Shown here in pieces: positions 30,304 to 45,975 of a DNA stretch of 64,000 nt. Location: IMG/VR virus record IMGVR_UViG_3300031787_000044, positions 1-64,000 of that record; one strand, given 5' to 3'. The DNA comes from a virus. The notes under the pieces were generated by a model that worked only from the letters and a program-made list of their open reading frames with translations, was not told where the DNA came from and did not search any database. The position numbers and the translations under genes are program-made. The first letter of the stretch is position 1. Each line of letters opens with the position of its first letter.

Positions 30304-31126
30304 TTTTCCTACGTCTCCAACGAACGGCCAGCTCTATGCTTTAAACGGTAGAACCTATCAATACAACGCAGCTAAGCAAAGATGGGATGGTTTTACAGTA
30401 AATGGCGCGCAAGGTATCCAAGGTATCACTGGTGAGCAAGGCATCCAAGGCATTTCCGGAAATCAGGGCGTCCAAGGTATTCAGGGTACCGGGGGTGCAG
30501 GTGAACAGGGTGTTCAAGGCATTACTGGATCTCAAGGTATCCAAGGTATCGCCGGTTCTATAGCTTCGCAAGGCGTGCAAGGCATTCAGGGTATCGAAGG
30601 CGCGGGCGGGCAGGGTGTTCAAGGTACTACTGGATCTCAAGGTATCCAAGGCATCGCGGGTGCCGTAGCTTCACAGGGTGTACAAGGTATTCAAGGAACC
30701 AGTGGGGCAGGATCTCAAGGCGTTCAGGGTATTACCGGATCTCAAGGTACGCAAGGAACCGGAGCTCAAGGTATTCAGGGTATCACCGGATCTCAAGGTA
30801 TAACTGGTGTATCCGGTGCAAACACGGTTCCTGCTGCAGGAACCAAGACGTCTTCTTACACATTAGCAGCTGGAGATGTAGGAGATTTTGTTGCTATAGG
30901 ATCCGGCGGTAGCATCGTAATACCAAGCGGTGTGTTTTCAACTGGCGATATAATTTCAATTTTCAATAATACTTCATCAAATGCGACAATTACTTCTTCT
31001 GCAGTAACTTCATATATTTCTGGTGCTGACACTGACGTTTCTAGTATCACCTTGTTTACAAGAGGTCTCTGCACGATCTTGTTCGTAGGTACAAACATCT
31101 GTGTAGTCTCTGGTGCAGTTTCGTAA
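30290..31126 (+). CDS. Second collagen-like fibre protein (cassette A)
   Basis: A 278-residue protein overlapping the previous gene by 14 bases. Residues 1-36 (FDFPTSPTNGQLYALNGRTY, then Q-R-W-D-G-F) are the short beta module seen at the head of many phage fibre proteins. Residues about 40-175 are Gly-X-Y repeats that share stretches of identical DNA with the upstream gene (about 53 bases around 30735-30787 match 29779-29832). Residues about 180-278 are a C-terminal beta domain (GDVGDFVAIGSGGSIVIPSG) likely to trimerise. There is no S74 domain. A truncated copy of its N-terminal module survives at 50733-50864. Confidence 0.83.
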   Translation: MAAFDFPTSPTNGQLYALNGRTYQYNAAKQRWDGFTVNGAQGIQGITGEQGIQGISGNQGVQGIQGTGGAGEQGVQGITGSQGIQGIAGSIASQGVQGIQGIEGAGGQGVQGTTGSQGIQGIAGAVASQGVQGIQGTSGAGSQGVQGITGSQGTQGTGAQGIQGITGSQGITGVSGANTVPAAGTKTSSYTLAAGDVGDFVAIGSGGSIVIPSGVFSTGDIISIFNNTSSNATITSSAVTSYISGADTDVSSITLFTRGLCTILFVGTNICVVSGAVS

Positions 31127-33144
31127 TGTCAATTGGAAATCTAAATATGCTCTTGGGAACGACTGCTTATCTTAGTAGTTATAGTATTAGTTCCTCGGCC
31201 GCTTCTATCAATGAAGGAAATACCGTCACTGTTACCGTAAGCGCAAGGGTCCCGGATAGTACTACTGTAGGATATACGGTCACTGGAGTAAATGCAGAAG
31301 ATCTATCACGGAGTACAACAGGTACATTTACGCTTACAAGTAATCAAGGCATATTAGATTTCCCAACACTAATAAACGACGATATGGAAATATTCCTAGC
31401 CGTTGAGCCACTCAGTGGTTCTAATCTTAGTGTTGTTAAGTATAGAACAACGGCAGATCTGCAAAGCCCAGTACTTGAAGGGCAATACTTTTACCCGGTC
31501 GGTAGCAGTCAAAGAGCTAGTTCGATATTTTTTAAACCAGACGGTGAAAAATTTTGGTTACTAGACAATAATAATGATGAAATTGCTGAGTTCAGTATGA
31601 CACCCGAACCAAGCGTGGATCAATGGGATCTCAGCACGGTTGTTGCTGGACCAGTTGATCCCTACAGTACACTTGGAACGAATCACCAAGGTCTTTGGAT
31701 TTCGAGTAGCGGTACACAACTATTTCAAACTGATCGTGCTTTAAGCAGAATAATACAAGATACAATAACTGCGTGGAATCCAACCTTTTCACTTGGCCCA
31801 CAGAGTCCAGAGAGAACCTTGGACATATCGGCAACCGCAAGCCTTCCTACTGGAATACACGTAAAACCGGATGGAACGAAGGCATTCGTAGCAGACGTAT
31901 CAAATCCGACACTAGGTTCTCCTGGTGCAATTTTAGCATACTCTGGTACTGCGTTTCAGTGTAACACTTGGACATTTTCTACATCGTTAGCAGTAGGTTA
32001 TTTTCCGCTTGATGTGCGCGTGAATGATACTGGTACTAAAATGTACACGGTTGGAGACAATAGAATAATATATTACTATACGTTAAGTACTCCTTGGGAC
32101 TTAAGCACGGCGACGTTAGTATCGTCTCTAAATCTATCCGCATCGTATAGTCTAATTCAAGGAATTTATATTGCAAATCCTGCATCAGAAACATTTAGAC
32201 TTACACTCGACGCAACGGACAGTATAGGTAATCAAACCGGATCGAAGTTCGTAGATGTAGTCATAAATGATTATGTTACGCCAGGATTTCAACTTTTTTC
32301 TACTCCTGGTACCACAACATTTACTGTCCCTAATGACGTTACTAGTGTAAACGTGGTTGCTATCGGTGGGGGCGGTGGCGGACAGATTAGCCGAGGAACA
32401 TCTGGTGGTGGTGAAGTACCTGCTAGCGGCGGCGGCGGGGGCGGTCTCGGCTGGAAAAACAATATTGCTGTTACACCTGGAAGTACTTATACAGTCCTCG
32501 TTGGGCAAGGTGGTGCTGGGGCCACTATAGTTGGAGACCAGCTTTCGACTACCGTAAACGGTAGTCCTGGATTTGATAGTTATTTTATAAGCTCCGGCAC
32601 GGTTAAGGGTGGATTCGGTGGCGGCGGCGATTCTGATGGAGGATCTGCCGGGACGTTTACTGGCGATGGGGGCGGGAATGGCGGTGTAGGGCAGACTCGA
32701 TCTTCTGGTTATGATGGCGGGGGCGGCGGCGGGGCGGGCGGTTATTCTGGAAACGGCGGCGGCGCAACTAGCGGTCAAGGAAATAATCCAGCAACAAATT
32801 CTGGAGGAGGGGGTGCCGGTGCGAGTAGAGAATATAGCCCAGACATTTCCGGCGGATTTATTTCGGAAGGCGGTGACGGCGGCGGAGTAGGTGCTCACGG
32901 TAAGGGCTCTGACGGAGTAGGAGGCGGGGCGACACAGATTAGTGGAGGTACAACAGCTCCTAGCGGAACTGCCGGCAGTTTTGGTTCTAGTCAAACTTAT
33001 GGGGGCGGCGGCGGCGGAGCTATGTACGCTTACTTTGACAGTGGTGCTACACGAACTGCTTCTTCAGGAAGCCCTGGCGCTGTTCTTATAAGATGGGGCA
33101 CCGGCACGACGTTCCCTGATTATAAAAATCCTGCATCATACTAA
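31126..33144 (+). CDS. Candidate receptor-binding adhesin with Gly-rich domain
   Basis: The 672 residues fall into three parts. Residues about 20-105 are an Ig/cadherin-like beta domain (SINEGNTVTVTVSARVPDST). Residues about 115-370 have propeller-like repeats of the SIFFKPDGEKFWLLD / GIHVKPDGTKAFVAD type (F/V-K-P-D-G-x-K, at least four). Residues about 385-672 are a Gly-rich domain introduced by FTVPNDVTSVNVVAIGGGGG, with many GGGG runs and ending in PGAVLIRWG. Gly-rich domains of this kind occur at phage fibre tips; in phage S16 gp38 polyglycine helices form the receptor-binding head. The gene ends cassette A, consistent with a distal adhesin. Its GC-rich glycine codons contrast with neighbours. 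Confidence 0.8.
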   Translation: MSIGNLNMLLGTTAYLSSYSISSSAASINEGNTVTVTVSARVPDSTTVGYTVTGVNAEDLSRSTTGTFTLTSNQGILDFPTLINDDMEIFLAVEPLSGSNLSVVKYRTTADLQSPVLEGQYFYPVGSSQRASSIFFKPDGEKFWLLDNNNDEIAEFSMTPEPSVDQWDLSTVVAGPVDPYSTLGTNHQGLWISSSGTQLFQTDRALSRIIQDTITAWNPTFSLGPQSPERTLDISATASLPTGIHVKPDGTKAFVADVSNPTLGSPGAILAYSGTAFQCNTWTFSTSLAVGYFPLDVRVNDTGTKMYTVGDNRIIYYYTLSTPWDLSTATLVSSLNLSASYSLIQGIYIANPASETFRLTLDATDSIGNQTGSKFVDVVINDYVTPGFQLFSTPGTTTFTVPNDVTSVNVVAIGGGGGGQISRGTSGGGEVPASGGGGGGLGWKNNIAVTPGSTYTVLVGQGGAGATIVGDQLSTTVNGSPGFDSYFISSGTVKGGFGGGGDSDGGSAGTFTGDGGGNGGVGQTRSSGYDGGGGGGAGGYSGNGGGATSGQGNNPATNSGGGGAGASREYSPDISGGFISEGGDGGGVGAHGKGSDGVGGGATQISGGTTAPSGTAGSFGSSQTYGGGGGGAMYAYFDSGATRTASSGSPGAVLIRWGTGTTFPDYKNPASY

Positions 33145-33170
33145 ATGGATTTAAGTATTCGAGATCAATT

Positions 33171-33178
33171 TATAAATA
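33171..33178 (+). promoter_or_regulatory. T4-type late promoter before the propeller gene cluster
   Basis: Exact TATAAATA, 28 bases before the start of the 29-codon miniature ORF and about 120 bases before the first propeller gene. Confidence 0.83.
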
Positions 33179-33206
33179 GTTAAGATACACAAGGGAGATC
33201 TTGAGA

Positions 33207-33296
33207 ATGTTGTTTAATACGAACGGATCTGTTAACAAAACGCGCTTGTGTGATCTTACTCAAATAATAGGACGCTCTGGCGAGCAACGGGTGTAA
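33207..33296 (+). pseudogene. 29-codon miniature relic of a propeller-repeat gene
   Basis: This short ORF (ATG 33207, TAA 33294-33296) encodes MLFNTNGSVNKTR, then LCDLTQIIGRSGEQRV. Its start resembles the MAFKINGSD opening of the gene at 34339 and its end resembles the universal propeller C-terminus GDLTQAR-x-x-AGQQV. It therefore looks like a paralogue reduced to both ends by deletion of all repeats. AAGGGAG lies upstream, and the first propeller gene starts three bases after its stop, so it may still be translated as a leader peptide. Too short to assign a function. Confidence 0.55.
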
Positions 33297-33298
33297 AC

Positions 33299-34306
33299 AT
33301 GGCATACATAATAAAAGGCACTACTGTTATAAGTGATGCGGGCGCGATTGATTCCGCACAGAGTAAGATAATTGCAAACAGTTCGTTGGCGCTCGAAGAA
33401 GCTATAGTATATTCACCAGTGCAAGGTAGTACGAGTGGATATACATCAGGTGGAGAAATTGCAAGCCTTAACTATGTGAATACTATCGACAAGTTTCCGT
33501 TTGCGGCAGACGGAAATGCTACCGATGTTGGTGATCTAACAGCACCAGCTCGTCGAGCAGCAGCAGGTCAATCAAGCGCTGAGTCTGGGTATACTTCAGG
33601 CGGTCAATCGCCAATACTTAACACAATTGATAAGTTTCCGTTTGCAGCTAATGCTAATGCCACTGACGTCGGTGATCTTACACAAGCAAGAGCCGCCCCT
33701 GCCGGCCAATCTAGTGACGTAAGCGGTTATACATCTGGCGGAGTGACTGGGCCTACTTACGTTAACACTATAGATAAGTTTCCTTTTGCTGCAAATGCCA
33801 ACGCAACAGACGTTGGTGATCTTACACAAGAAAGAGTAAACGTTGCCGGCCAATCTAGTGACGTAAGCGGTTATACATCTGGGGGATTTAATCTTTCTAC
33901 TCTTGTTAACACTATATTCAAGTTTCCTTTTGCATCTAACGGTAATGCCACAGACGTTGGTGATCTTACACAAGCAAGACTAAGCTCTGCCGGCCAATCT
34001 AGTGACGTAAGCGGTTATACTTCTGGAGGACTTGACCCAGGAATTACTCCTCCTCCTACTCTTGTTAACACTATAGACAAGTTTCCCTTTGCGACAGACG
34101 CCAATGCTACTGACGTGGGTGATCTTACACAATCAAGGTTTGGCCCGGCAGGTCAATCAAGTACAGAATCTGGCTACAATTCAGGCGGGGTCTTGCCTGC
34201 GTACGCAAACACTATTGACAAATTTTCATTCGCGGCAAACGCCAATGCTACTGACGTAGGAGACCTTACACAAGCAAGACTTTACGCAGCAGGTCAACAG
34301 GTATAA
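33299..34306 (+). CDS. Six-repeat propeller protein 1
   Basis: This 335-residue protein has an N-terminal arm of about 45 residues (IIKGTTVISDAGAID ...) followed by exactly six repeats of about 45-52 residues. The consensus is S-G-Y-T-S-G-G, variable loop, N-T-I-D-K-F-P-F-A, A-N-A-T-D-V-G-D-L-T, variable R-x3-AGQSS. The last repeat ends AGQQV at the stop. Kelch/NHL-like G-G and aromatic positions and repeat number suggest a closed six-bladed beta-propeller. Variation concentrates in the loop after S-G-G (longest here in repeat 5, with LDPGITPPPTL) and after the Arg. Expressed late; probably a virion surface or receptor-binding protein, by inference from location among fibre genes. Confidence 0.78.
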   Translation: MAYIIKGTTVISDAGAIDSAQSKIIANSSLALEEAIVYSPVQGSTSGYTSGGEIASLNYVNTIDKFPFAADGNATDVGDLTAPARRAAAGQSSAESGYTSGGQSPILNTIDKFPFAANANATDVGDLTQARAAPAGQSSDVSGYTSGGVTGPTYVNTIDKFPFAANANATDVGDLTQERVNVAGQSSDVSGYTSGGFNLSTLVNTIFKFPFASNGNATDVGDLTQARLSSAGQSSDVSGYTSGGLDPGITPPPTLVNTIDKFPFATDANATDVGDLTQSRFGPAGQSSTESGYNSGGVLPAYANTIDKFSFAANANATDVGDLTQARLYAAGQQV

Positions 34307-34309
34307 ATA
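34302..34309 (+). promoter_or_regulatory. Late promoter built on the stop codon of propeller gene 1
   Basis: TATAAATA formed by the last two bases of the Val codon, the TAA stop and the next three bases; 30 bases before the ATG of propeller gene 2. Confidence 0.8.
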
Positions 34310-34338
34310 AACTAGAGTAGAGTTGGAGAAAGTAAGTC

Positions 34339-35439
34339 ATGGCATTTAAGATAAACGGATCTGATGTTATAGGTGCTGCTAGATCGTATGCCAGTACCGC
34401 AAACGTATCCGTCACAGATTCCATCATCATCGCAAATAACGATTCGTTGGATGCCGTGAGTGGATCGGCTGCCGGATATACTTTCTCGGATGGTACCGTT
34501 GTGATTGGAGAAGACGGTCTAGCGTTAAATGATATTACTCTACGAGATGCTTCGATAGAGGTGACTGGGCCGCTGTTTCAAGGAACGATAAGCGGATATG
34601 CTTCTGGGGGAGGCGACGGTCCCCCGGCGGGTCTCACAATAGAGAAGTTTTCATTTACGTCAGATGGAAATGCCACAGATGTTGGAGACTTAACTGTCCA
34701 AAGAGGATACGCCTCAGGTCAAAGCAGTTCTGTTTCAGGATACACTTCTGGAGGACTCGCCGGCGGTGCTCTCAATACGATCGACAAGTTTCCATTTGCT
34801 TCAAATGCGAATGCCACAGATGTAGGAGACTTAACGCAAGCTAGAAGGAGTATCGGCGGCGGGGGCCAGACTTCTACTGTAAGCGGTTATACTTCAGGAG
34901 GCTTTGTTCCTGCAGCTGTTAATACCATAGATAAATTTCCGTTTGCTGTAAATGCAAACGCCACAGATGTTGGGGACTTAACTGTAGGAAGGTATAACAT
35001 TGCAGGACAATCGAGTACTGAATATGGTTATACCGCCGGTGGATCACCTTCGAATATAATTGACAAGTTTCCATTCGCTGCCGATGGCAATGCTACAGAT
35101 GTAGGCGATTTATCAATAGGAAAATTGGGGCCAGCTGGACAGTCTAGCACCGTGTCTGGCTATACTTCCGGATCATTCCCAGGTAGCAACGTAATAGATA
35201 AATTTCCATTTGCTTCAAATGCTAACGCGACGGACGTGGGTGACCTTAGCCAAGCAAGAGGGTCTAACGCTGGACAGAGTTCTACTACGAATGGTTATAC
35301 TTCTGGCGGGACGTACCAGTTCCTGCCTACTGCGGTCAAAAACACAATAGATAAGTTCCCATTTGCGGCGGATGCTAACGCTACGGACGTAGGTGATCTT
35401 ACGGTTACAAGATCCTCCCCGACAGGACAACAGGTATAA
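34339..35439 (+). CDS. Six-repeat propeller protein 2
   Basis: A 366-residue paralogue with the longest N-terminal arm of the set, about 84 residues (KINGSDVIGAARSYAST, SIIIANNDSLDAV and DGTVVIGEDGLALND), then six repeats. The first repeat is the most divergent (GLTIEKFSFTSDG) and the fourth is short (Y-G-Y-T-A-G-G-S-P-S-N). One repeat has an expanded RRSIGGGGQTS segment. The arm combines the I-I-A-N-N-x-S-L element also present in propeller 1 with a strand pair seen in propellers 3, 4 and 5, so it may be a hybrid. The stop region reads GTATAAAAC, so the late-box pattern is degenerate, and the next gene starts three bases later, suggesting coupled translation. Confidence 0.78.
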   Translation: MAFKINGSDVIGAARSYASTANVSVTDSIIIANNDSLDAVSGSAAGYTFSDGTVVIGEDGLALNDITLRDASIEVTGPLFQGTISGYASGGGDGPPAGLTIEKFSFTSDGNATDVGDLTVQRGYASGQSSSVSGYTSGGLAGGALNTIDKFPFASNANATDVGDLTQARRSIGGGGQTSTVSGYTSGGFVPAAVNTIDKFPFAVNANATDVGDLTVGRYNIAGQSSTEYGYTAGGSPSNIIDKFPFAADGNATDVGDLSIGKLGPAGQSSTVSGYTSGSFPGSNVIDKFPFASNANATDVGDLSQARGSNAGQSSTTNGYTSGGTYQFLPTAVKNTIDKFPFAADANATDVGDLTVTRSSPTGQQV

Positions 35440-35442
35440 AAC

Positions 35443-36435
35443 ATGGCAAAAGTAATTACAGAAAATTTCGCGTTTACACAGTATGCTGATGGTATAGAAT
35501 TTAACGGTAAAGCCGTTGCGACTGCGTTTGATGTTCCACCAATATTTCAAGGAACTGTAAGCGGTTACGCAACGGGCGGGAGCTATCCTAGCGGAACAAC
35601 TGCAATTAGAAAATTTTCCTTTGCGTCAAATGGAAATTCTGTAAGTGTAGGCAACTTGACGAACGCCCTGAGTGGAGGTGCAGGACAATCTAGTTCTACA
35701 TCTGGTTATACAACAGGATCCGGCACCGGCTCTATCAATATGATTAATAAGTTTCCATTTTCTGTTGACGCAAACGCAACGGATGTTGGTGATCTTACAC
35801 AATTAAGGGTAAATCCGGCCGGTCAATCGAGTCCCGTATCTGGTTATGGTTATTCGTCTGGCGGCACGGGCGGCTCACCTTATTCAAATGTAATAGATAA
35901 GTTTCCTTTTTCAGCAGACGCCAATGCAACAGATGTAGGAGATCTTACGCAATTAAGAGAGTATCCGGCTGGACAATCTAGTGTTACATCAGGTTATTCT
36001 TCTGGTGGATATTCACCTCCATTTAGAAATACTATAGACAAGTTTCCGTTTGCTTCTGACGCAAACGCAACTGATGTTGGAGACCTTACTGTATCTAGGT
36101 CTAGAGCAGCAGGACAGTCTAGTGATGTGTCAGGATATTCGTCTGGAGGCAGAGAAATTCCTACTCTTCTAAATGTAATAGACAAGTTTCCATTTGCCTC
36201 AAACGCAAACGCAACTGATGTCGGAGATCTTACACAGAGCCGTAACGCGGCTTCAGGTCAATCTAGTACTGTTTCAGGTTATTCGTCTGGAGGCGATGGC
36301 ACCCCGTCCCCCGCCTTTTCAAATGTAATAGATAAGTTTCCTTTTGCCTCAAACGCAAACGCAACTGATGTAGGCGATTTAGCTCAAGGAAATGTAGGTG
36401 GGGTAACTGGACAAACCGCAGGCCAACAGGTATAA
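35443..36435 (+). CDS. Six-repeat propeller protein 3
   Basis: A 330-residue paralogue with a short arm of about 39 residues (ENFAFTQYADGIEFNGKAV) joined through I-F-Q-G-T-V to six repeats. The first repeat has lost the canonical A-T-D-V-G-D and reads SVSVGNLTNAL, the most degenerate blade in the family. Repeat 3 carries a duplicated G-Y (SGYGYSSGG). The last repeat has an insertion (GNVGGVTGQTAGQQV) before the shared C-terminus. The loop after S-G-G varies from 6 to 11 residues. It has no recognisable promoter of its own and is probably cotranscribed with propeller 2. Confidence 0.78.
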   Translation: MAKVITENFAFTQYADGIEFNGKAVATAFDVPPIFQGTVSGYATGGSYPSGTTAIRKFSFASNGNSVSVGNLTNALSGGAGQSSSTSGYTTGSGTGSINMINKFPFSVDANATDVGDLTQLRVNPAGQSSPVSGYGYSSGGTGGSPYSNVIDKFPFSADANATDVGDLTQLREYPAGQSSVTSGYSSGGYSPPFRNTIDKFPFASDANATDVGDLTVSRSRAAGQSSDVSGYSSGGREIPTLLNVIDKFPFASNANATDVGDLTQSRNAASGQSSTVSGYSSGGDGTPSPAFSNVIDKFPFASNANATDVGDLAQGNVGGVTGQTAGQQV

Positions 36436-36438
36436 ATA
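36431..36438 (+). promoter_or_regulatory. Late promoter built on the stop codon of propeller gene 3
   Basis: TATAAATA spanning the Val-stop junction (TA-TAA-ATA), 24 bases before the propeller 4 ATG. Confidence 0.8.
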
Positions 36439-36461
36439 AATGAAAATGTCAAGGATTTAAT

Positions 36462-37427
36462 ATGCCTATTACGTTAAACAAAGACTCGATTAACTTCGGT
36501 AACTACAGCATATCTCTGCATCCTAACGGCATTGAGATCGACGGTAAGTTTAAGTATGCGTCGAGTGATATATACGTGAGACCATTTCAAGGTACGATAA
36601 GTGGATATACTTCTGGCGGAACAATACCACCAAATAATAGTACTAACACAATTGATAAGTTTCCATTCTCGTCCAATGCTAACGCAACTGACGTGGGTGA
36701 TTTGACGCAAGCAAGGCGCGAGAGCGCAGGCCAATCAAGTGCCGAATCTGGTTATACTTCTGGTGGTTATGGATCAGGAAACTCAAACGTAATAGATAAG
36801 TTTCCGTTTGCCGCGAATGGCAACGCAACGGATGTTGGCGATCTTACACAAGCAAGAAATTCGCTTTCCGGAACTTCTAGTTCCGCATCAGGCTATTCAG
36901 CTGGAGGTTTTGGTCCTCTAAATACTGTTGACAAGTTTCCGTTTGCCGCGAATGGCAACGCAACGGATGTTGGCGATCTTACACAATCAAGGTATGGCCC
37001 GGCAGGTCAATCAAGTACATCATCAGGTTATGCGTCTGGTGGTTTTACAACTGCAAACTCTAATGTAATTGATAAGTTTCCTTTTTCTTCTGATGCCAAC
37101 GCGACGGACGTCGGTGATTTGACTCTGGCAAGAAACCTTGTAACTGGTCAATCTAGTTCTGAATCAGGTTATGCGTCTGGAGGAGGAACCTCAAACGTAA
37201 TAGACAAGTTTCCATTTGCATCTAATGCAAACGCAACAGACGTCGGAGATCTTACACAAGCAAGAACTGGATCGGCGGGTCAAAGCTCTACAGAATCTGG
37301 TTACACTTCTGGTGGAAGCCCATTTCTTAACACAATCGACAAGTTTCCATTTGCTGCAAATGCTAACGCAACAGACGTGGGTGATTTAACTCAAGGTAGA
37401 CAATCTTCGGCTGGTCAACAGATATAA
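36462..37427 (+). CDS. Six-repeat propeller protein 4
   Basis: A 321-residue paralogue with a 46-residue arm (NFGNYSISLHPNGIEIDGKF) that closely resembles the arm of propeller 5 (NFGDYTLTFTNDGFEFDGAI), then P-F-Q-G-T-I and six repeats. Repeats 2 and 3 contain the same DNA sequence for about 55 bases, and repeat 5 contains a 121-base tract (37163-37283) identical to the last repeat of propeller 6. The protein ends AGQQI instead of AGQQV, with ATA TAA ATA forming the next late box. Confidence 0.78.
   Translation: MPITLNKDSINFGNYSISLHPNGIEIDGKFKYASSDIYVRPFQGTISGYTSGGTIPPNNSTNTIDKFPFSSNANATDVGDLTQARRESAGQSSAESGYTSGGYGSGNSNVIDKFPFAANGNATDVGDLTQARNSLSGTSSSASGYSAGGFGPLNTVDKFPFAANGNATDVGDLTQSRYGPAGQSSTSSGYASGGFTTANSNVIDKFPFSSDANATDVGDLTLARNLVTGQSSSESGYASGGGTSNVIDKFPFASNANATDVGDLTQARTGSAGQSSTESGYTSGGSPFLNTIDKFPFAANANATDVGDLTQGRQSSAGQQI
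37163..37283 (+). repeat. 121-base exact repeat shared with propeller gene 6
   Basis: Identical base for base to 44707-44827, covering most of one propeller repeat including its variable loop. Matches stop at both ends within three bases of the repeat boundary, as expected for a recent recombination tract. Confidence 0.93.
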
Positions 37428-37430
37428 ATA
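37423..37430 (+). promoter_or_regulatory. Late promoter built on the stop codon of propeller gene 4
   Basis: TATAAATA from ATA-TAA-ATA at the 3' end of propeller 4, 28 bases before the sulfotransferase ATG. Confidence 0.8.
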
Positions 37431-37457
37431 ATCTTGTGAAACAACGAGAGTTATATT

Positions 37458-38285
37458 ATGAAACAATTGAATTTTTGCGCAGGTCTTCCAAGAACCGGAT
37501 CGACCGTGCTTATGAATATCCTACAACAGAACCCAGAAATCTTTACAACCGCCACGGATCCCTTTCCTGAGATACTCAGCGAACAGATCCTCATTAAATC
37601 TCGTTATCGAGAATCCTTTCAGGCAATGAGCTGCGAACAAGCAGACGATGCCGTTTACGGAATGGCGATTGGTGCTACGAAGGGTTGGTACGAAGGACTC
37701 ACAAAGAAACCAGTCGTGATCTCAAAGTCAAGAACTTGGTCGAACCTTCATCATCTCTTTCCAAACAACAAGATACTCGTCACAGTAAGAGACCTTCGAG
37801 ACATCGTCGAGAGTTTTGATCGTGTCAACGATAAGATTAAAGCCCTTCATACCTTCGGTGATGGTAACATTCTCTACGGCTCTATGACTGAGACCGAGAA
37901 GTATCACTATCACTTTAAAGAATCAAACGCGTTTTCAGGCAATCTGAGACACGAGATACTCAAGTACATTGAACTCTTTAAGACCAATCCGGAAAGAGTT
38001 AAGTTTGTTCGATACGAGGATCTGCTTAAGGAACCAGTCTACATGCTTCGAAGAATATACGACTTCTTAGGTCTTGAATACTTTGAGCACGATTTGAACA
38101 ACATAGAGCAGTCTGCATTATTCGAACACGACAACGCGTACTTTCGTGAGAAGACGGATCATCATACGAAGCCTTCTCTTCTACCTTGGAAGGAACCAAA
38201 GAGAGTACTCTCAGAAAGTTTTCACGAAAAAGTCGTGAGCGAAAACACCTGGTTCTATAAATCCTTTTATCCTGACGCGATATAA
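37458..38285 (+). CDS. Sulfotransferase
   Basis: This 275-residue protein has both PAPS-binding motifs of the sulfotransferase superfamily: the 5'-phosphosulfate loop GLPRTGSTVLMN at residues 9-20 and the 3'-phosphate motif TVRDLRDIVESF with R111 and S119. A further helix (VRYEDLLKEP) matches the usual C-terminal signature. The enzyme would transfer sulfate from PAPS to a hydroxyl or amine on a glycan or protein. It has its own late box and a GC-richer, more codon-biased sequence than the propeller genes around it, which suggests a separate origin. Being expressed late and adjacent to fibre genes, a virion protein or surface glycan is a plausible acceptor; this is inference. Confidence 0.85.
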   Translation: MKQLNFCAGLPRTGSTVLMNILQQNPEIFTTATDPFPEILSEQILIKSRYRESFQAMSCEQADDAVYGMAIGATKGWYEGLTKKPVVISKSRTWSNLHHLFPNNKILVTVRDLRDIVESFDRVNDKIKALHTFGDGNILYGSMTETEKYHYHFKESNAFSGNLRHEILKYIELFKTNPERVKFVRYEDLLKEPVYMLRRIYDFLGLEYFEHDLNNIEQSALFEHDNAYFREKTDHHTKPSLLPWKEPKRVLSESFHEKVVSENTWFYKSFYPDAI

Positions 38286-38288
38286 ATA
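38281..38288 (+). promoter_or_regulatory. Late promoter built on the sulfotransferase stop codon
   Basis: TATAAATA overlapping the TAA (38283-38285), 28 bases before the next ATG. Confidence 0.78.
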
Positions 38289-38315
38289 ATACTATATGAT
38301 GATACGGAGTACATT

Positions 38316-38873
38316 ATGAACGAACACGCGACTAACATTTTTAATGTTCCAATATGGGGATACGTTCTTACGAACGAAAAGTATCAAGCAGAAGATTATC
38401 TCGACAGAGTTCTAGAACTATACGCTCAGGAACCGTCGGTATCAAAGAGTAACTCGGGCGGTGCCTGGCAGTCGAGAGACGATCTTCACGAGGATCCGAT
38501 CTTTCGAGAGTTTGTAAAAAACATTCTACTCAAATCGATCGCATCAAACATTCTCAAGGACTACGGCATCACCGAGTTCAAGCTACAGAGCATGTGGGCA
38601 AACGTAAACGGTAAGCACTCTTTCAATCACCATCACACGCACGAGGGTTATCTCTCGGGTGTATTCTATCTTAGAGTACCGCAGAACTCTGGTCGTCTCG
38701 TATTTACGAACCCAGCCATTCGCAGCGAGAGACATCCAATTCGTGATAAGAACTATCCAATTCAACCACAACCTCTTGCGTGTATTGTCTTTCCGAGTTG
38801 GCTCGAACACTATGTCGAACCAAATCAGTCGGACGATACGAGAGTAAGTATCAGCTTTAACATAGGTGTTTGA
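38316..38873 (+). CDS. 2-oxoglutarate/Fe(II) oxygenase, 2OG-FeII_Oxy_5 type
   Basis: The 185 residues match the putative 2OG-Fe(II) oxygenase group I know as 2OG-FeII_Oxy_5: IFNVPIWGY at the N-terminus, SMWANVNGKHSFNHHHTHEG, then LSGVFYLRVPQNSGRLVFTN and FPSWLEHYVEPN followed by RVSISFNI. The His cluster 105-109 supplies the first metal ligands, H165 the distal one, and R176 is suited to bind 2-oxoglutarate. Such enzymes hydroxylate proteins, nucleic acids or small molecules; substrate unknown. Related genes are common in T4-like cyanophages. The downstream oxygenase follows at once, so the two are probably co-translated. Confidence 0.85.
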   Translation: MNEHATNIFNVPIWGYVLTNEKYQAEDYLDRVLELYAQEPSVSKSNSGGAWQSRDDLHEDPIFREFVKNILLKSIASNILKDYGITEFKLQSMWANVNGKHSFNHHHTHEGYLSGVFYLRVPQNSGRLVFTNPAIRSERHPIRDKNYPIQPQPLACIVFPSWLEHYVEPNQSDDTRVSISFNIGV

Positions 38874-38875
38874 TT

Positions 38876-39448
38876 ATGAACCATAAAAAGTTACACATTA
38901 ACGGCCGTGAAGTAGATATCTATGACGATCTGTTTACGTTTGAAGAGATCTCAAAGATGTTCATCGCGGTTCGTAATTTTCCCTACACAGCTACTAATTT
39001 TAGCGACGGGTTTAGATCGCACATCTACGGCGAAAAGCACAAGCTCAAGTACGTGTTTGGATCGCGTGAAGAAGCAACTAACTTTGGCATTATAAATAGA
39101 CTCAATCAGGTCAATCCACATTTTGCTAAGAATTATATCGTTCACCGACAATATGTAAATCTTGCTACGACGAGCGACTTCGATACGATTCACATAGACG
39201 ACAATCATCTAGAAAAGCCTAAGACGGCGCTATACTATCCTCACCCGGATTGGAACATTCATTGGGGAGGTCATACATTCTTCTTCAACGAAAAGTTGGA
39301 TAGTATAGAATACACAGCAGCGTATAAACCTGGAAGGCTTGTCATCTTTGATGGTTCGATACCTCACTGTGGTTCGCCGCCATACGCATCTGCTCAAGAT
39401 AAAAGATACGTTGTGACCTGCAAGTTTCAATATACGAATGGAGAATAA
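38876..39448 (+). CDS. 2-oxoglutarate/Fe(II) oxygenase
   Basis: Starting at ATG 38876 (an upstream TTG at 38870 is less likely; AGGTG precedes), the protein has 190 residues. The double-stranded beta-helix metal triad is clear: H106-I-D108 in TIHIDDNH and H164 in DGSIPHCGSPP, with the basic residues DKRYVVTCKF near the end for 2-oxoglutarate. GGHTFFFNEKLDSIEY and YKPGRLVIFDG are typical strands. The substrate cannot be told from sequence. It sits between two other oxygenase genes, a concentration unusual outside modification loci. Confidence 0.85.
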   Translation: MNHKKLHINGREVDIYDDLFTFEEISKMFIAVRNFPYTATNFSDGFRSHIYGEKHKLKYVFGSREEATNFGIINRLNQVNPHFAKNYIVHRQYVNLATTSDFDTIHIDDNHLEKPKTALYYPHPDWNIHWGGHTFFFNEKLDSIEYTAAYKPGRLVIFDGSIPHCGSPPYASAQDKRYVVTCKFQYTNGE

Positions 39449-39451
39449 ATT

Positions 39452-40768
39452 ATGAAAGACACGGTAAGTTACTTTGAAGAAAATGGTTATGTAGTTTTAC
39501 AGAACGTCCTACCTAAAGAAAAGTGCGACGAATTAGTAGCGCATATGTTTAAGCTACACGAAGAAGGTAAACTGGTTCAGGATGATCAGTGCCCTCTTTC
39601 TGATGCCATCTACGGAGATCCGGTTTTTGATAACCTTCTTCAGAACGTAGCAGAACCTCTCGGTAAAGCCGTTGGCAGAAAGCTGCTTCCTACGTATTCG
39701 TATGCAAGGATCTATCGTCCTGGCGACGTTTTAAAGAAACACCTCGATCGCCCTGCCTGTGAGATTAGTACAACGCTTACTCTTGGATACGACGCAAAGG
39801 TCAACTGGCCAATTCATTTTGCAAACCAAGACGGAACGAAAGAAACAGCAGTGACTATGGAACCCGGTGAGATGGCTGCGTATAAGGGAACCGAGATGGT
39901 TCACTGGAGAAAGCCGTTTAAGGGTAACTGGCACGTTCAGGTCTTCCTACACTTCGTAGATGCTAACGGTCCTCATGCAAACCAAGCAATGGATGGAAGA
40001 CAGTCTCTTGGTGTTGACAAGACTGCGCAGACCATGACTCAAGCAGCGCAGCCGCCACAAAAGCAACAGGAAAATGTAGTAAACCAACCAAGAACGGACA
40101 ACCTCAGTCTAAAGAAGAATAACGAGATGTTAATTCCGGATCCAATCTTTGGCGGTGTGATCCTACCGAGCACTGATAATACTCTTCCTGGTTATTTTCC
40201 AGTCAATAGCGAAACGTTTCCTACGATGATGTTCACAAACCAGGAGTGTGATCGTATCATTCAGATCGCGAAGGACTCGTATTCTTCTGCTGCGAGCGTT
40301 GGTAGTGGAAAGAGCGGAAGTGTTGCGAAACAAATCAGATCTGCCGAGATCTATCCGATAGAGAACAACGAAGAGAATCGTTGGATCTTTAAAAAGATCG
40401 CGAGTGTTGTTTCAGTAGTAAACACCGTACACTTTGAATACGACATCTCGGCTATCGAGTACGCGCTTCAACTCATTCACTATCCTTCGGATGCGGAAGT
40501 TCCTGGCCACTATAACTGGCACGTGGATGCCGGTCCTGGCGTAGTAGCAACGAGAAAGATCTCGTTTACTGCACAGCTCTCGGACCCGAATAGTTATACC
40601 GGTTGCGATCTCATTGTAGACGATCACGGCAATAAAATTCAAGCATCTCGTGAGAGAGGATCGTTCTCGCTATTTCCGAGTTATATGCCACACGTAGTTA
40701 CTCCAATCGAGACGGGAGATCGTTATGCTCTCGTCATTTGGATACATGGATCAAGGAGGTTCAGATAA
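39452..40768 (+). CDS. Two-domain 2-oxoglutarate/Fe(II) oxygenase
   Basis: This 438-residue protein contains two complete oxygenase domains joined by a Gln-rich linker (about residues 180-225, AAQPPQKQQENV). The N-terminal domain (about 5-175) has H97-L-D99 (KKHLDRPA) and H151 (EMVHWRKPF). The C-terminal domain (about 245-438) is of the prolyl-hydroxylase/PKHD type with H357-V-D359 (YNWHVDAGPG), H414 (YMPHVVTP) and R424 (DRYALVIW). Both triads look intact, so both could be active. An early reading frame of the next gene overlaps its end, but that gene's preferred start lies after the stop. Fe(II), 2-oxoglutarate and O2 are the expected cosubstrates; substrate unknown. Confidence 0.85.
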   Translation: MKDTVSYFEENGYVVLQNVLPKEKCDELVAHMFKLHEEGKLVQDDQCPLSDAIYGDPVFDNLLQNVAEPLGKAVGRKLLPTYSYARIYRPGDVLKKHLDRPACEISTTLTLGYDAKVNWPIHFANQDGTKETAVTMEPGEMAAYKGTEMVHWRKPFKGNWHVQVFLHFVDANGPHANQAMDGRQSLGVDKTAQTMTQAAQPPQKQQENVVNQPRTDNLSLKKNNEMLIPDPIFGGVILPSTDNTLPGYFPVNSETFPTMMFTNQECDRIIQIAKDSYSSAASVGSGKSGSVAKQIRSAEIYPIENNEENRWIFKKIASVVSVVNTVHFEYDISAIEYALQLIHYPSDAEVPGHYNWHVDAGPGVVATRKISFTAQLSDPNSYTGCDLIVDDHGNKIQASRERGSFSLFPSYMPHVVTPIETGDRYALVIWIHGSRRFR

Positions 40769-40769
40769 T

Positions 40770-41723
40770 ATGGAAGAAGAAAAGAAAACAACAGCGCGTG
40801 AACTCGCAGTATTCGAAGAGATCCGTAAGAGCGATATCGTAACAGCCGAGGATGCGGAGAGAATGAAGGTGCCTATGGCCATGGTCTTTGGTCATGGTAC
40901 TACTGGAAATCTTCCTAGCTTTGGCGGTAAGACACTTAATGAAAACTCTCAGTTGGTAGACGTTGCTCTCAAGAACGTCGGCGAGCTACAGAATATTTGG
41001 AACCACAGCCACACTCAATGGATGTGGAAGCATATCAACTTTAGCTATCACAGCCCGCATAAAAATATGCGCCAGATTGCAGCAGAACTTGCGAAGAAAA
41101 AATCTGCTTTGAATGAAGCAAAGTGGCGTCATATCAAGAAGGAAGCAAGAATTCGTAAGATCCAAGAAGAACTGCAAAACGCAGAAAATATGGATTACTG
41201 GCGTGAGGTCGACCTGAAGATTAAGCTTGCTGAGTATCAAGAAGGTGCGATCGAAGGCATGTCGTATATCGAAGGGGCCATGAAGGACGTTCTCGCACTT
41301 CAGGAAGTCTTTGAGGATCTAAAGAAAACAGTTAGCGATTTCAGTGAGCACGACATCGAGAAAGAGGAATCGATATCACACCTAAAGAGAAGTATAGTCC
41401 AGTGTATTCGTGACGTTCGCCAATCTGGACGCATTACAAAGGGTGAGCAGGAGTATATGGAGCAGATCGGGGTGAACCCAGGTAAGATGCAACGTATCCT
41501 TCAGTTATACGTAGAAAAAGAGATCGAACAGGACTCTTGGGATAGCGAAGGCCTCTTTGAGTTTGTCGATGGATTGGCTCGCGAACTCGTCGAGAAACAT
41601 AAGGTCGACGTGAAGAGAATGGAACTACTCGGTTACGATCCAGAATCAAGAGAGGACATTACATACTCTACGAAGGTCGCTCTCTTAGATAACTTTATGG
41701 ACGAGGAGTCGAATGAAGACTGA
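40770..41723 (+). CDS. Coiled-coil protein of unknown function
   Basis: Starting at ATG 40770, preceded by an ideal AGGAGG, the protein has 317 residues; an upstream ATG at 40725 lies inside the oxygenase gene and is rejected. It is highly charged and mostly helical: after an N-terminal segment with MVFGHGTTGNLPSFGGKTL it has long heptad-like stretches (about residues 95-190), then acidic helices to an EESNED tail. Similar hypothetical proteins with the GHGTTGN-like segment occur in marine T4-like phages, to my memory without function. It sits between oxygenase and methyltransferase genes with overlapping ends, so it may be a scaffold or adaptor for this modification locus. Confidence 0.75.
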   Translation: MEEEKKTTARELAVFEEIRKSDIVTAEDAERMKVPMAMVFGHGTTGNLPSFGGKTLNENSQLVDVALKNVGELQNIWNHSHTQWMWKHINFSYHSPHKNMRQIAAELAKKKSALNEAKWRHIKKEARIRKIQEELQNAENMDYWREVDLKIKLAEYQEGAIEGMSYIEGAMKDVLALQEVFEDLKKTVSDFSEHDIEKEESISHLKRSIVQCIRDVRQSGRITKGEQEYMEQIGVNPGKMQRILQLYVEKEIEQDSWDSEGLFEFVDGLARELVEKHKVDVKRMELLGYDPESREDITYSTKVALLDNFMDEESNED

Positions 41724-42456
41724 GTTCTATAACAGACTCATAGAAGCAAAGAAGTATACCGACAGGATTGGTTCTATCTACGGAACTGAGGATCTGTCGG
41801 TATACCTTTATTCCGTGATACGAATGATGAAGCCAAAGACCGTTGTAGAACTTGGTACGGGTCTCGGATCCACGATGTTATGGAGTGCTCTTGCTCTTGA
41901 AGAGAACGATGAAGGAATGCTCTACACCGTTGATGACGGAAGCGAGTGGAAGAGAATTAGTACTGCGAAGGAAATGATCGGCGATCACTTTCGCATAGAC
42001 TATGATCGATTTGTGAAGGATCTTATTCTAGAGTTTCAGATATACGAAAGAGTAGAGTTTATAAACGAGAAGATCTCAATCGTTGATGTAAATGATATCG
42101 ACATACTCTTTAGTGACTTTGCTCACGGAGTCTTCGATGTAACAAAGTTGCTCGCTGATTATCTACCAAAGATGAACGAACACGCTAGGATCTACATCGA
42201 CAGCGCGAGTACTCACTACGGATCCTACAGCACGATCGAGCGTATCGTTCAGATACTTAACAATGGAAAGATACCGCGATCTTTCGAAGAAATTTCAAAT
42301 CTGGATTGCGACTCGTTCCTAAGAAAAGTGCAGAGAAGTTCTTTTTCGATAGAGCACATCATTGAGAATAAAGATCGTAATCAAAACAGCACGTGCTGTA
42401 TCACAATCTCTCCAATTGATATTTTTCCGTATCCTAGGAAAAACATGAGAGTATAA
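41713..42456 (+). CDS. Class I SAM-dependent methyltransferase
   Basis: This 247-residue protein overlaps the coiled-coil gene by 11 bases. The Rossmann motif I is TVVELGTGLGSTML at about residues 39-52, the acidic end of strand 2 is YTVDDGSEW (about 76-84), and motif IV is DILFSDFAHG (about 134-143). The order is that of the Methyltransf_24-like O-methyltransferases associated with glycan or cephalosporin-hydroxylase-type proteins. Acceptor unknown. The TAA stop is embedded in the next late promoter. Confidence 0.78.
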   Translation: MKTEFYNRLIEAKKYTDRIGSIYGTEDLSVYLYSVIRMMKPKTVVELGTGLGSTMLWSALALEENDEGMLYTVDDGSEWKRISTAKEMIGDHFRIDYDRFVKDLILEFQIYERVEFINEKISIVDVNDIDILFSDFAHGVFDVTKLLADYLPKMNEHARIYIDSASTHYGSYSTIERIVQILNNGKIPRSFEEISNLDCDSFLRKVQRSSFSIEHIIENKDRNQNSTCCITISPIDIFPYPRKNMRV

Positions 42457-42459
42457 ATA
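42452..42459 (+). promoter_or_regulatory. Late promoter built on the methyltransferase stop codon
   Basis: TATAAATA from TA-TAA-ATA at the gene end, 25 bases before the next ATG, with AGGAGG in the leader. Confidence 0.82.
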
Positions 42460-42484
42460 GAATAAACTAAACTAGGAGGCAATC

Positions 42485-42817
42485 ATGGCAGTAATAGAAT
42501 ATATGCTACACAGAATCAACGGAAGTTCTCGCGCTGAGATACCAGGATGGGTTGGAGACCGCGGTCACTGGTTTAATTCTGCAGATAACACATTCATCGG
42601 ATGGATTGACGACGTTCGCGACTACTACGTTCCAGACACCGTAGTTTCTCTGACGAAAGCAGATCTCGTTACTCGTCAGCTCGCAATGCACGCCAACACT
42701 CCGTTCATGACAATGCAGGATGATCCAAGCGCAGAGCCGGTAGCAATGACCGACGCAGAAGTTACGACTATGACCGAAGCATGGTATGATGATTTTGTTG
42801 CTAAGAATAGCGCGTAA
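42485..42817 (+). CDS. Conserved small phage protein
   Basis: A 110-residue acidic protein behind an ideal ribosome site (AGGAGG). It has VIEYMLHRINGSSRAEIPGW and HWFNSADNTFIGWID near the N-terminus and a Thr/Asp-rich C-terminus (MTDAEVTTMTEAWYDDF). The Trp/aromatic-rich first half resembles small hypothetical proteins found next to tail fibre genes in marine T4-like phages, as I recall. No enzymatic motif or membrane segment. Strong expression is suggested by the late box and ribosome site. Confidence 0.75.
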   Translation: MAVIEYMLHRINGSSRAEIPGWVGDRGHWFNSADNTFIGWIDDVRDYYVPDTVVSLTKADLVTRQLAMHANTPFMTMQDDPSAEPVAMTDAEVTTMTEAWYDDFVAKNSA

Positions 42818-42822
42818 TAATC

Positions 42823-42951
42823 ATGGAATTAATTTTAGCGAAAAAGATCGAAGAACTCGAGTTTAACGAACTTCTTGAAGTACTTAGAAAGTTTCAGACG
42901 GAAGATCGTGACGCATTTCAATTGTTACAGGAATTGGTAGAAGATATCTGA
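42823..42951 (+). CDS. Very small acidic helical protein
   Basis: A 42-codon ORF between two genes, starting five bases after the upstream stop and ending in TGATG, where its stop overlaps the start of propeller gene 5. The product (LILAKKIEELEFNELLEVLR, then F-Q-T-E-D-R-D-A-F) is an amphipathic acidic helix. The tight spacing on both sides and lack of any other use of the gap support translation. Function unknown. Confidence 0.6.
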   Translation: MELILAKKIEELEFNELLEVLRKFQTEDRDAFQLLQELVEDI

Positions 42952-43928
42952 TGGCACAGATTCAGTTCAACGCGGATGGAACGATAAACTTTGGTGACTA
43001 CACACTCACGTTTACGAACGATGGGTTTGAATTCGACGGTGCTATCTTGGCTACTGAGCATGTAGAAGCTTATAGTTTTCAAGGAAGTGTGAGCGGATAT
43101 ACTTCTGGCGGGTTTTCTATGAACACGATTGATAAATTTCCTTTTTCTGCAAGTGCTAACGCGACGGATGTTGGCGATCTTACACAAGCAAGATATAAAA
43201 CAGCGGGTCAATCGAGTTCTGAATCTGGCTACACATCTGGAGGAAATTACACCGTTAATATAATTGATAAATTTCCGTTTGCTGTTGATGCTAATGCTAC
43301 GGACGTTGGCGATTTAACTCAAGGGCGGCATATGGTGGCAGGGCAGTCAAATGCTGAGTCTGGTTATACTTCGGGGGGGAGTATATCAAATCCATCATAT
43401 ATCAATGTCATTGACAAGTTTCCCTTTTCGGCAAGCGCGAATGCAACCGATGTCGGCGATTTGACGCAAGCAAGGCGCGAGAGCGCAGGCCAAAGCTCTA
43501 CTGTATCAGGTTATACTTCTGGCGGATTTGTCCCACCAGCAATTGATACAATTGACAAGTTTCCCTTTGCGACTAATGCTAACGCAACTGACGTAGGCAA
43601 TCTTACGCGTGGAAGATATAGAACTTCAGGACAATCAAGCGCAGATTCTGGTTATACTTCAGGCGGAAGCCCACCGCTATTTGACACAATTGATAAATTT
43701 TCGTTTGCGTCTGACGCAAACGCAACAAACGTAGGACTATTATTTTCAGGAAGTAGAAATGGTGCGGGTCAGTCGAGTATGGAGTCTGGCTACGTTTCTG
43801 GCGGGGCAAATCCGGGAGGTAGTTATAGCGATGTTATACAAAAGTTTTCATTTGCATCTGATGGAAATGCAACGGATGTCAGCAACTTGACACAAGCGCG
43901 GTTGCAGGCAGCAGGTCAACAGGTGTAA
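42951..43928 (+). CDS. Six-repeat propeller protein 5
   Basis: A 325-residue paralogue, separated from propellers 1-4 by the enzyme block. The arm (about 47 residues) resembles that of propeller 4. Six repeats follow; the fifth and sixth are divergent (ANATNVGLLFSGSRNG and SDVIQKFSFASDGNATDVSNL). The fourth-repeat boundary shares 36 bases with propeller 4 around GCAAGGCGCGAGAGCG (43451-43486 against 36699-36734), another sign of exchange. It starts on the TGATG of the 42-codon ORF and ends AGQQV with GTG-TAA, so the late box is not formed. Confidence 0.78.
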   Translation: MAQIQFNADGTINFGDYTLTFTNDGFEFDGAILATEHVEAYSFQGSVSGYTSGGFSMNTIDKFPFSASANATDVGDLTQARYKTAGQSSSESGYTSGGNYTVNIIDKFPFAVDANATDVGDLTQGRHMVAGQSNAESGYTSGGSISNPSYINVIDKFPFSASANATDVGDLTQARRESAGQSSTVSGYTSGGFVPPAIDTIDKFPFATNANATDVGNLTRGRYRTSGQSSADSGYTSGGSPPLFDTIDKFSFASDANATNVGLLFSGSRNGAGQSSMESGYVSGGANPGGSYSDVIQKFSFASDGNATDVSNLTQARLQAAGQQV

Positions 43929-43930
43929 AC

Positions 43931-44836
43931 ATGGCAATACGTATAACAAAAGATAAACTTGAAAGTATTGACATTACAGACACGTTTCAAGGTGAAGTAA
44001 GCGGTTATACTTCAGGGGGAGCAGACCCCGGCAACGTTAATACAATTGATAAATTTTCTTTTTCCGCTGATGCTAATGCAACTGACGTAGGAGATCTCAC
44101 GCAAGCTCGCCGAGGCCCCGGCGGCCAATCAAGTACCATATCTGGTTATACTTCTGGTGGTTATACACCGTCTCGCGTAAACACTATTGATAAATTTCCA
44201 TTCGCAGCAGACGCAAATGCCACTGACGTCGGTGATCTTACACAAGCAAGAGATAGAGTGGTAGGTCAATCAAGTACCATATCAGGTTACTCTTCAGGGG
44301 GAACAAACCCCGCCGCTGTTAATACAATTGACAAATTTCCATTTGCATCTAATGCAAACGCCACTGACGTAGGCGATTTAACTCAAGCTAGGTCTAGAGC
44401 AGCAGGACAGTCAAGCGACGTATCAGGTTATACATCTGGAGATGGCGCAGCGCCGCTATATAACGTAATTGATAAATTTCCCTTTGCTTCAAATGCAAAT
44501 GCTACTGACGTAGGAGATCTCACACAAGGAAGATTTAATGGTATTGCAGGCCAATCAAGTACCATATCAGGTTACGCTTCAGGGGGAGGAAACCCCACCA
44601 ACGTTAATACAATTGATAAATTTTCTTTTTCCGCTGATGCAAATGCCACTGACGTCGGTGATTTAACTCAAGCAAGAAGTTTTGTAGCAGGTCAATCAAG
44701 TACATCATCAGGTTATGCGTCTGGAGGAGGAACCTCAAACGTAATAGACAAGTTTCCATTTGCATCTAATGCAAACGCAACAGACGTCGGAGATCTTACA
44801 CAAGCAAGAACTGGATCGGCGGGTCAACAGGTGTAA
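43931..44836 (+). CDS. Six-repeat propeller protein 6
   Basis: The shortest paralogue (301 residues) has a 23-residue arm (MAIRITKDKLESIDITDTFQ) and six repeats that are the most regular of the family. The last repeat is a 121-base exact match to one in propeller 4. The repeat-1 and repeat-5 blocks also resemble each other closely at DNA level. It starts three bases after propeller 5 ends, so the two are probably translated together. Confidence 0.78.
   Translation: MAIRITKDKLESIDITDTFQGEVSGYTSGGADPGNVNTIDKFSFSADANATDVGDLTQARRGPGGQSSTISGYTSGGYTPSRVNTIDKFPFAADANATDVGDLTQARDRVVGQSSTISGYSSGGTNPAAVNTIDKFPFASNANATDVGDLTQARSRAAGQSSDVSGYTSGDGAAPLYNVIDKFPFASNANATDVGDLTQGRFNGIAGQSSTISGYASGGGNPTNVNTIDKFSFSADANATDVGDLTQARSFVAGQSSTSSGYASGGGTSNVIDKFPFASNANATDVGDLTQARTGSAGQQV
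44707..44827 (+). repeat. 121-base exact repeat shared with propeller gene 4
   Basis: Partner of 37163-37283. In this gene the tract runs to the AGQQV end, in the other it continues into another repeat. Confidence 0.93.
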
Positions 44837-44949: not shown

Positions 44950-45975
44950 ATGAAAAGAATTTTGATTACCGGTGGTGCTGGGTTTATCGCACATCATCTT
45001 GTCAATAAGGTGCTGAAAGAGACTGATTGGGAGGTCGTGACTCTCGATAGATTGGACTACAGCGGAAACCTTAACCGCCTCCACGACTCACTACAGGAGT
45101 TCGACGCAGAGACTCGTAAGAGAGTAAAGGTAGTCTTTCACGACCTAAAGGCGGACATGAATCCGCTCGTTCGAGCCGAAGTAGGGCGCGTGGACTACAT
45201 TGCCCATCTTGCTGCTGGATCTCACGTGGATCGTTCGATAGATTATCCTATGGAATTTGTCCTTGACAATGTTGTAGGAACCTGCAATATTCTCGAATTC
45301 GCAAGGTCACAGAAGGATCATCTTGCTCGCTTTATCTACTTTAGTACGGATGAGGTCTTTGGACCAGCACCCGATGGTATTAAGTATAAAGAGAACGATC
45401 GTTACAACTCAACGAATCCTTACAGTGCGTCAAAAGCCGGTGGTGAAGAACTCGCTGTAGCCTACGAGAACACATACGGTCTTCCTATCTATATCACACA
45501 TACGATGAACGTGTTTGGCCAGAGACAGCATCCTGAGAAGTACATTCCCATGTGTATTAAGAGAGCGAGGGATGGAGAAAGGATCACCATTCACAGCGAT
45601 AGAACAAAGACGATCGCCGGATCTCGTCACTATATACACGCAGAGGACGTAGCAGACGCAGTTCTATTCCTACTCAATAACGAGTTTGATCTAAAGAGCG
45701 AGTGGGGTGGAGCTAAGTGCCCAAAGTTCAATATCGTTGGAGCAGAAGAGATCGACAACTACGAGCTCGCAAAGATCATCGCTGATGCGCAGGGTAAGGA
45801 ATTGGTCTACGAGTTTGTTGATTTTCACTCGAGCCGACCAGGACACGATCTTCGTTATGCGTTGGATGGAAATAAGATGAAGGAACTTGGTTGGGAACCA
45901 TCAAAGTCCGTTCGTGAAAGAATTGCAGAAGTTGTAAACTGGACTCTCGAGAACGATAGATGGCTCGTGTCTTAA
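44950..45975 (+). CDS. NAD-dependent nucleotide-sugar epimerase/dehydratase (RmlB-like)
   Basis: This 341-residue extended short-chain dehydrogenase has the Rossmann motif TGGAGFIAHH at residues 7-16, the catalytic Y158-x3-K162 (YSASKAGGEE) and the T133-D134-E135 triad (FSTDEVFGP), which is the signature of dTDP-glucose 4,6-dehydratase rather than of 4-epimerases. DRLDYSGNL and HLAAGSHVDRSI support RmlB-like substrate binding. The length is normal (RmlB about 350). It would make a 4-keto-6-deoxy sugar nucleotide, the precursor of rhamnose and many amino/methyl sugars. The rest of a rhamnose pathway is not in the window, so the host may supply later steps or the phage redirects host precursors. 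Confidence 0.88.
   Translation: MKRILITGGAGFIAHHLVNKVLKETDWEVVTLDRLDYSGNLNRLHDSLQEFDAETRKRVKVVFHDLKADMNPLVRAEVGRVDYIAHLAAGSHVDRSIDYPMEFVLDNVVGTCNILEFARSQKDHLARFIYFSTDEVFGPAPDGIKYKENDRYNSTNPYSASKAGGEELAVAYENTYGLPIYITHTMNVFGQRQHPEKYIPMCIKRARDGERITIHSDRTKTIAGSRHYIHAEDVADAVLFLLNNEFDLKSEWGGAKCPKFNIVGAEEIDNYELAKIIADAQGKELVYEFVDFHSSRPGHDLRYALDGNKMKELGWEPSKSVRERIAEVVNWTLENDRWLVS

Follow-up and report, generated by a model that had tools for sequence, protein, structure and literature searches.

Six genes in the 64,000-nucleotide stretch of viral DNA analysed here (the window) encode proteins built from one shared repeat, which raises the question of what these proteins form and what a phage gains from several versions of them. 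The source record, an IMG/VR contig of 89.6 kb, comes from a T4-like phage and has genes for a gp23-type capsid protein, baseplate wedge and hub, sheath and terminase. The array lies between the baseplate genes and the terminase, amid collagen-like and S74-type fibre genes (Table 1). A cyanophage host gained no support, as ten records contained no psbA-type gene.

The repeat array and its surroundings

A sequence-only reading of this DNA had described six paralogues with exactly six repeats each, a common C-terminus, distinct N-terminal arms and one relic gene. All six open reading frames are present on the + strand where that reading placed them. Each contains six repeats of 42-53 residues (about 47; 36 repeats in total), and all six proteins end in GQQV or GQQI. 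The distinctness of the arms, which range from 23 to 84 residues, holds for most of them, but those of genes D and E are alike. The relic was not recovered: neither the protein nor the DNA repeat profile detects a seventh gene or a credible remnant in the six frames of the window. The best candidate, a short frame near 33180-33293 ending in LTQIIGRSGEQRV, reaches only E = 6.8 with the repeat HMM, which matches genes A-F at E values of about 1e-135 to 1e-151 each and has no other convincing match in the window. A relic is also ruled out for the small ORF 42485-42817, because its family recurs across 20 related loci.

Table 1. Location of the propeller genes, their identical blades and neighbouring features in the window
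Feature	Position	Strand	Evidence or remark
Gene with C-terminal Gly_rich_2 domain, directly upstream of array	31126..33144	+	Pfam
Propeller gene A: 45-aa arm and six blades, 335 aa	33299..34306	+	ORF, repeat HMM
Propeller gene B: 84-aa arm and six blades, 366 aa	34339..35439	+	ORF, repeat HMM
Propeller gene C: 39-aa arm and six blades, 330 aa	35443..36435	+	ORF, repeat HMM
Propeller gene D: 46-aa arm and six blades, 321 aa	36462..37427	+	ORF, AF2, Foldseek
Gene D blade 5, matching F blade 6 over 121 identical bp	37163..37283	+	
Companion block between D and E	37458..42817	+	recurs beside propeller heads in relatives
Propeller gene E: 47-aa arm (D-like) and six blades, 325 aa	42951..43928	+	ORF, repeat HMM
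Propeller gene F: 23-aa arm and six blades, 301 aa	43931..44836	+	ORF, repeat HMM
Gene F blade 6, matching D blade 5 over 121 identical bp	44707..44827	+	

The other five proteins are 59-68% identical to that of gene D. The profile phrog_19111, annotated as 'unknown function', matches all six (E 1.3e-14 to 1.3e-25). Pfam hits to THDPS_M and DNase_NucA_NucB above the cut-off were discarded as repeat artefacts; they differ among paralogues, and no single stretch passes alone. Searched by sequence, the PDB gave nothing but a fortuitous hit to a tail tube, and whole-protein profile searches matched no anchor domain in the window's own proteins, whose arms are short. An otherwise near-identical sister contig (L003) lacks 15 bp of gene D at the boundary of blades 4 and 5 (37148-37162) and 81 bp (33116-33196) across the 3' end of the gene directly upstream of the array.

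The companion block that separates genes D and E encodes a sulfotransferase, three 2OG-Fe(II) oxygenases, a methyltransferase, a coiled 332-aa protein (40725) and a 110-aa protein (42485). Near propeller heads, the family of 39452 is found in 33 loci, that of 40725 in 27, that of 42485 in 20 and the sulfotransferase in 19. A possible role of the block is modification of host glycans or of fibre proteins. A nucleotide-sugar epimerase/dehydratase (44950-45975) stands immediately past the array, and positions 46063-46404 match the L-shaped tail fibre assembly family phrog_3304 (E 5e-13), which is consistent with a fibre module.

A predicted Kelch-type propeller with one variable face

The sequence-only reading had proposed a closed six-bladed propeller, and structure prediction bears this out. 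The AF2 model of gene D, a single-chain model computed from 95 family sequences, has a pLDDT of 94.7 and a pTM of 0.86, with four strands in each repeat: strand A corresponds to AGQSS, B to SGYTSGG, C to NTIDKFPFA and D to ATDVGDL. In Foldseek comparisons its nearest solved structures are the designed six-fold Kelch propeller SAKe6AC (TM 0.80/0.92) and the six-bladed Kelch domains of human KLHL12 and Keap1. A divergent relative (L035:1721), in which the HMM sees only four repeats, is modelled at moderate confidence (pLDDT 77.7) as six four-stranded blades, and its best structural matches are again to KLHL12 Kelch. The propeller fold of the family is thus well supported as a prediction: the gene D model, its Foldseek matches and the divergent relative all point to a closed ring of six blades, each with four antiparallel strands.

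The family shares with Keap1, KLHL12, KLHL20 and SAKe6 the six four-stranded blades, the double glycine ending strand B (GG in 93-95% of 793 distinct blades), the C-terminal strand A that closes blade 1 and the variable face formed by BC and DA loops. In the gene D model the first blade opens with strand B at 47-51, and its strand A is completed by the C-terminal strand at 317-320. The Kelch signature residues are absent, strand C reading KFPF with Phe in place of Tyr and strand D reading DVGDL with Val/Leu in place of Trp. No Kelch profile is matched in Pfam at E <= 1 or in NCBIfam. Because of the missing Trp/Tyr signature and the lack of profile matches, the family can be called Kelch-like by structure only. 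It also differs from natural Kelch domains in that blades within one protein are far more similar to each other.

Across the 793 blades the core positions are almost invariant, and the turn between strands C and D has six residues in 630 of 633 blades. Entropy peaks in the BC loop, which follows SGG and varies from 0 to 19 residues, and in three DA-loop residues following Arg. The hypervariable, length-variable surface loops of the sequence-only reading are thus confirmed, with variation almost confined to these two loops. In Keap1 and KLHL20 ligands bind to the face that the BC and DA loops make up, and blade I is closed by a beta-A strand from the C-terminus (PMC4668279, PMC6720452). Strand topology, read against this published anatomy, places the BC and DA loops of the phage proteins on one predicted face, the counterpart of the ligand-binding face of Kelch. 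A dN/dS-like test of the loops was not usable, as too few changes separate close orthologues.

Constancy of six blades and exchange of heads and blades

Related stretches number at least 259 in the viral collection, and 65 loci were fetched, almost all of them metagenome contigs. Six repeats are counted by the HMM in 143 of 155 distinct complete relatives, and in 152 of 163 complete ORFs by an iterated, more sensitive profile after the addition of five MAG loci. Repeat numbers varying freely among relatives, which would have spoken against the proposed propellers, were not seen in this family, and the constancy of six is far from chance. Most exceptions reflect decay of the repeats; in several of them six degenerate copies can be made out by eye. 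Among the exceptions are L054:1863, with five clean blades and a sister gene that has six, and one fragment with a single blade. A 75-aa ORF in L042 (5941-6168), directly upstream of a full head, consists of an arm and one intact blade ending in AGQQYL, and is possibly a deletion remnant. In L070 a propeller fragment (111-839) lies at the end of a contig from a Glaciecola MAG. The rest of that contig resembles bacterial chromosome, with thrB/thrC/ung-like ORFs; host copy and chimera are the alternatives.

Named phages gave no match in a first tblastn search with gene D; homologues in Synechococcus phage S-SKS1 were found with gene F at a looser limit. These distant proteins carry GYFGGG repeats at about 30% identity. 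They resemble the window family in their homology and in their sulfotransferase and 2OG-Fe(II) oxygenase neighbours, but differ in consensus and in repeat count: they are not clean sixes, one ORF having at least eight repeats and others being short or frame-broken. The GYFGGG-type genes at 29784-35941 of locus L066, taken from the S-SKS1 record NC_020851, look frame-broken. A long homologous stretch at 202272-203129 of that record lacks annotation and is next to the sulfotransferase and the 2OG-Fe(II) oxygenase.

The propeller is always the C-terminal module, and the arms that precede it span 23-709 residues across relatives. Fibre-type anchors and shafts are found N-terminal to the head in relatives: arm domains include Mtd_N (E 1.8e-15), collagen together with the T7 tail-fibre N-terminal domain, and TIG, and PHROG matches of the arms are largely to tail fibre. 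Mtd_N occurs on the propeller proteins of L041 and, by sequence, L071. Arms of the propeller type also occur on proteins that have no propeller, including proteins with Gly_rich_2 heads in L040 and L048, where this head type stands in for the propeller on similar arms.

Modularity is most evident between closely related phages. Two loci from different metagenomes (L050 and L032) are 98-100% identical over 4.8 kb and 0.5 kb of nonpropeller DNA, and the arms in their shared slots are 88-99% identical. Four of the heads are at roughly 46-84% per blade, while two are still 94-100% identical. In one replaced head, blade 1 is 84% identical and blades 2-6 are 57-63% identical, with identities of 1.00 upstream and 0.97 downstream. 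Between near-identical phages, replaced heads show about 60% DNA identity against 82-100% in stalks and flanks. Gene pairs whose arms share at least 80% identity number 18; the head is replaced in 10 of them and retained in 8, with no intermediate case. Since the divergence at synonymous sites of replaced heads equals that between unrelated members, the change reflects recombinational replacement and not fast point change. Head swapping between phages is, on these alignments, a well-supported interpretation.

Exchange reaches single blades as well. Blades of different window genes have a mean DNA identity of 0.62; against this background, the match of D blade 5 to F blade 6 over 121 of 121 positions is evidently a blade transfer between paralogues, out of register. 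Long identical blade matches are far commoner between members of one phage group than across groups, but the within-group matches include some orthologous pairs. Similar blades occupy equal positions in about 20% of same-phage pairs, against 17% expected, which is no enrichment, and a bias towards exchange between blades 1 and 6 in one BLAST list was gone after a de-duplicated count. Repeat-driven chimeric assembly of the relatives is unlikely, because blades are only about 62% identical in DNA. No reverse transcriptase (RVT_1) was found in ten related records, which are possibly incomplete, and diversification by a DGR was rejected on this ground. The sequence-only reading had sought the source of diversity in changeable loops; the loops do vary, but diversity arises mainly through whole-head replacement and blade shuffling, not through loop change alone.

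Function of the heads and comparison with known systems

These observations are probably best explained by tail-fibre-type adhesins with six-bladed Kelch-type heads that are diversified by recombination. Each protein would consist of an N-terminal anchor arm and a C-terminal closed head, in which the terminal AGQQV would serve as strand A of blade 1 and zip the ring shut, and this role would account for both the invariant end and the fixed number of six. The BC loops after SGG and the DA loops, with three variable residues around Arg, would project together and touch host surface molecules. Several heads would be held simultaneously by one phage, and homologous recombination would diversify them through replacement of whole heads on conserved arms and out-of-register moves of single blades. 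We infer virion location, fibre mounting, trimerisation and receptor binding for the proteins of the window. The indications of a receptor-binding head are indirect: the domains fused to it in relatives, the genes around it and the swapping of heads. The exposed surface is hypervariable through both its BC and DA loops and head replacement.

Kelch domains act inside cells too, which counts against an adhesin. The proteins might then be intracellular adaptors for host or defence proteins during infection, in the manner of cellular and poxvirus Kelch proteins, which are binding adaptors; given the Mtd_N, collagen and T7-fibre fusions in relatives and the location in the tail-fibre region, such a role is extremely unlikely. 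The heads might instead remain on the virion but decorate its capsid, sheath or fibre shafts, providing weak particle, polysaccharide or surface binding, or shielding, and not specificity tips. The many copies per genome and the unrelated arms would suit this, as would the BFVD neighbours of the family, among them Kelch-like structural proteins from jumbo phage virions. Phage CBB, too, has a Kelch protein in its virion (CBB_552) and tail whiskers that have no assigned composition (PMC5259590). Head replacement on conserved arms, variation confined to the ligand loops and the tail-fibre type of the arms favour a specificity determinant, and we regard decoration or shielding as unlikely.

Glycan degradation offers another use for a propeller, the six-bladed propeller being a frequent annotation of phage depolymerase domains (PMC11448410), and sugar-active genes are close by. 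The best structural matches, however, are binding Kelch domains and not sialidase-type propellers, and a conserved catalytic set is not visible, because the conserved residues repeat in every blade and are structural, while both the length and the sequence of the loop face are hypervariable. That the heads are depolymerases is consequently very improbable.

Phage tracking of host surfaces is usually credited to point mutation, DGRs or exchange of tail-fibre tips. The adhesin interpretation suggests that the array equips the phage with interchangeable means of holding on to host cells. The propeller heads account for almost all of the difference between near-identical natural phages, and either a whole head or a single blade can be exchanged. 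A more specific proposal, which we advance tentatively and consider somewhat short of an even chance, is a combinatorial repertoire that operates independently of reverse transcription: interchangeable blade cassettes would be shuffled among paralogues and among phages, with selection holding their number at exactly six, and heads would be swapped onto a panel of arms, so that each phage carries several recognition rings. If the heads bind receptors, the evolution of host range could be read from environmental sequence alone, and designed Kelch scaffolds for the presentation of binding loops would have a natural counterpart in the near-symmetric ring of six blades.

No earlier description of this propeller family or its function was found in open-licence papers. 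A Kelch-repeat gene has been noted as unique to one of two co-isolated cyanophages, P-HM2 and not P-HM1 (PMC3037559). Propeller receptor-binding proteins known from phages have other blade numbers: five in phi11 Gp45, a distorted five in PRD1 P2 and seven in PhiKZ gp131C (PMC4901313). They share with the proposed architecture a propeller head on a virion attachment stalk and a proposed binding to the host surface, but differ in propeller type and are described as single proteins, whereas the window family forms arrays with swappable heads and shuffled blades. The T2-type adhesin gp38 is likewise an unvarying scaffold that presents hypervariable loops for receptor contact at the tip of a T4-like fibre, though its fold is a polyglycine-II sandwich and not a propeller (PMC12892980); the glycine-rich heads found here are an alternative on similar arms. 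Mtd of Bordetella phage shares its Mtd_N anchor with the propeller proteins of two relatives. Unlike Mtd and other DGR adhesins, the propeller family lacks a C-type lectin head, the ten records searched contain no reverse transcriptase, and diversification is by recombination instead.
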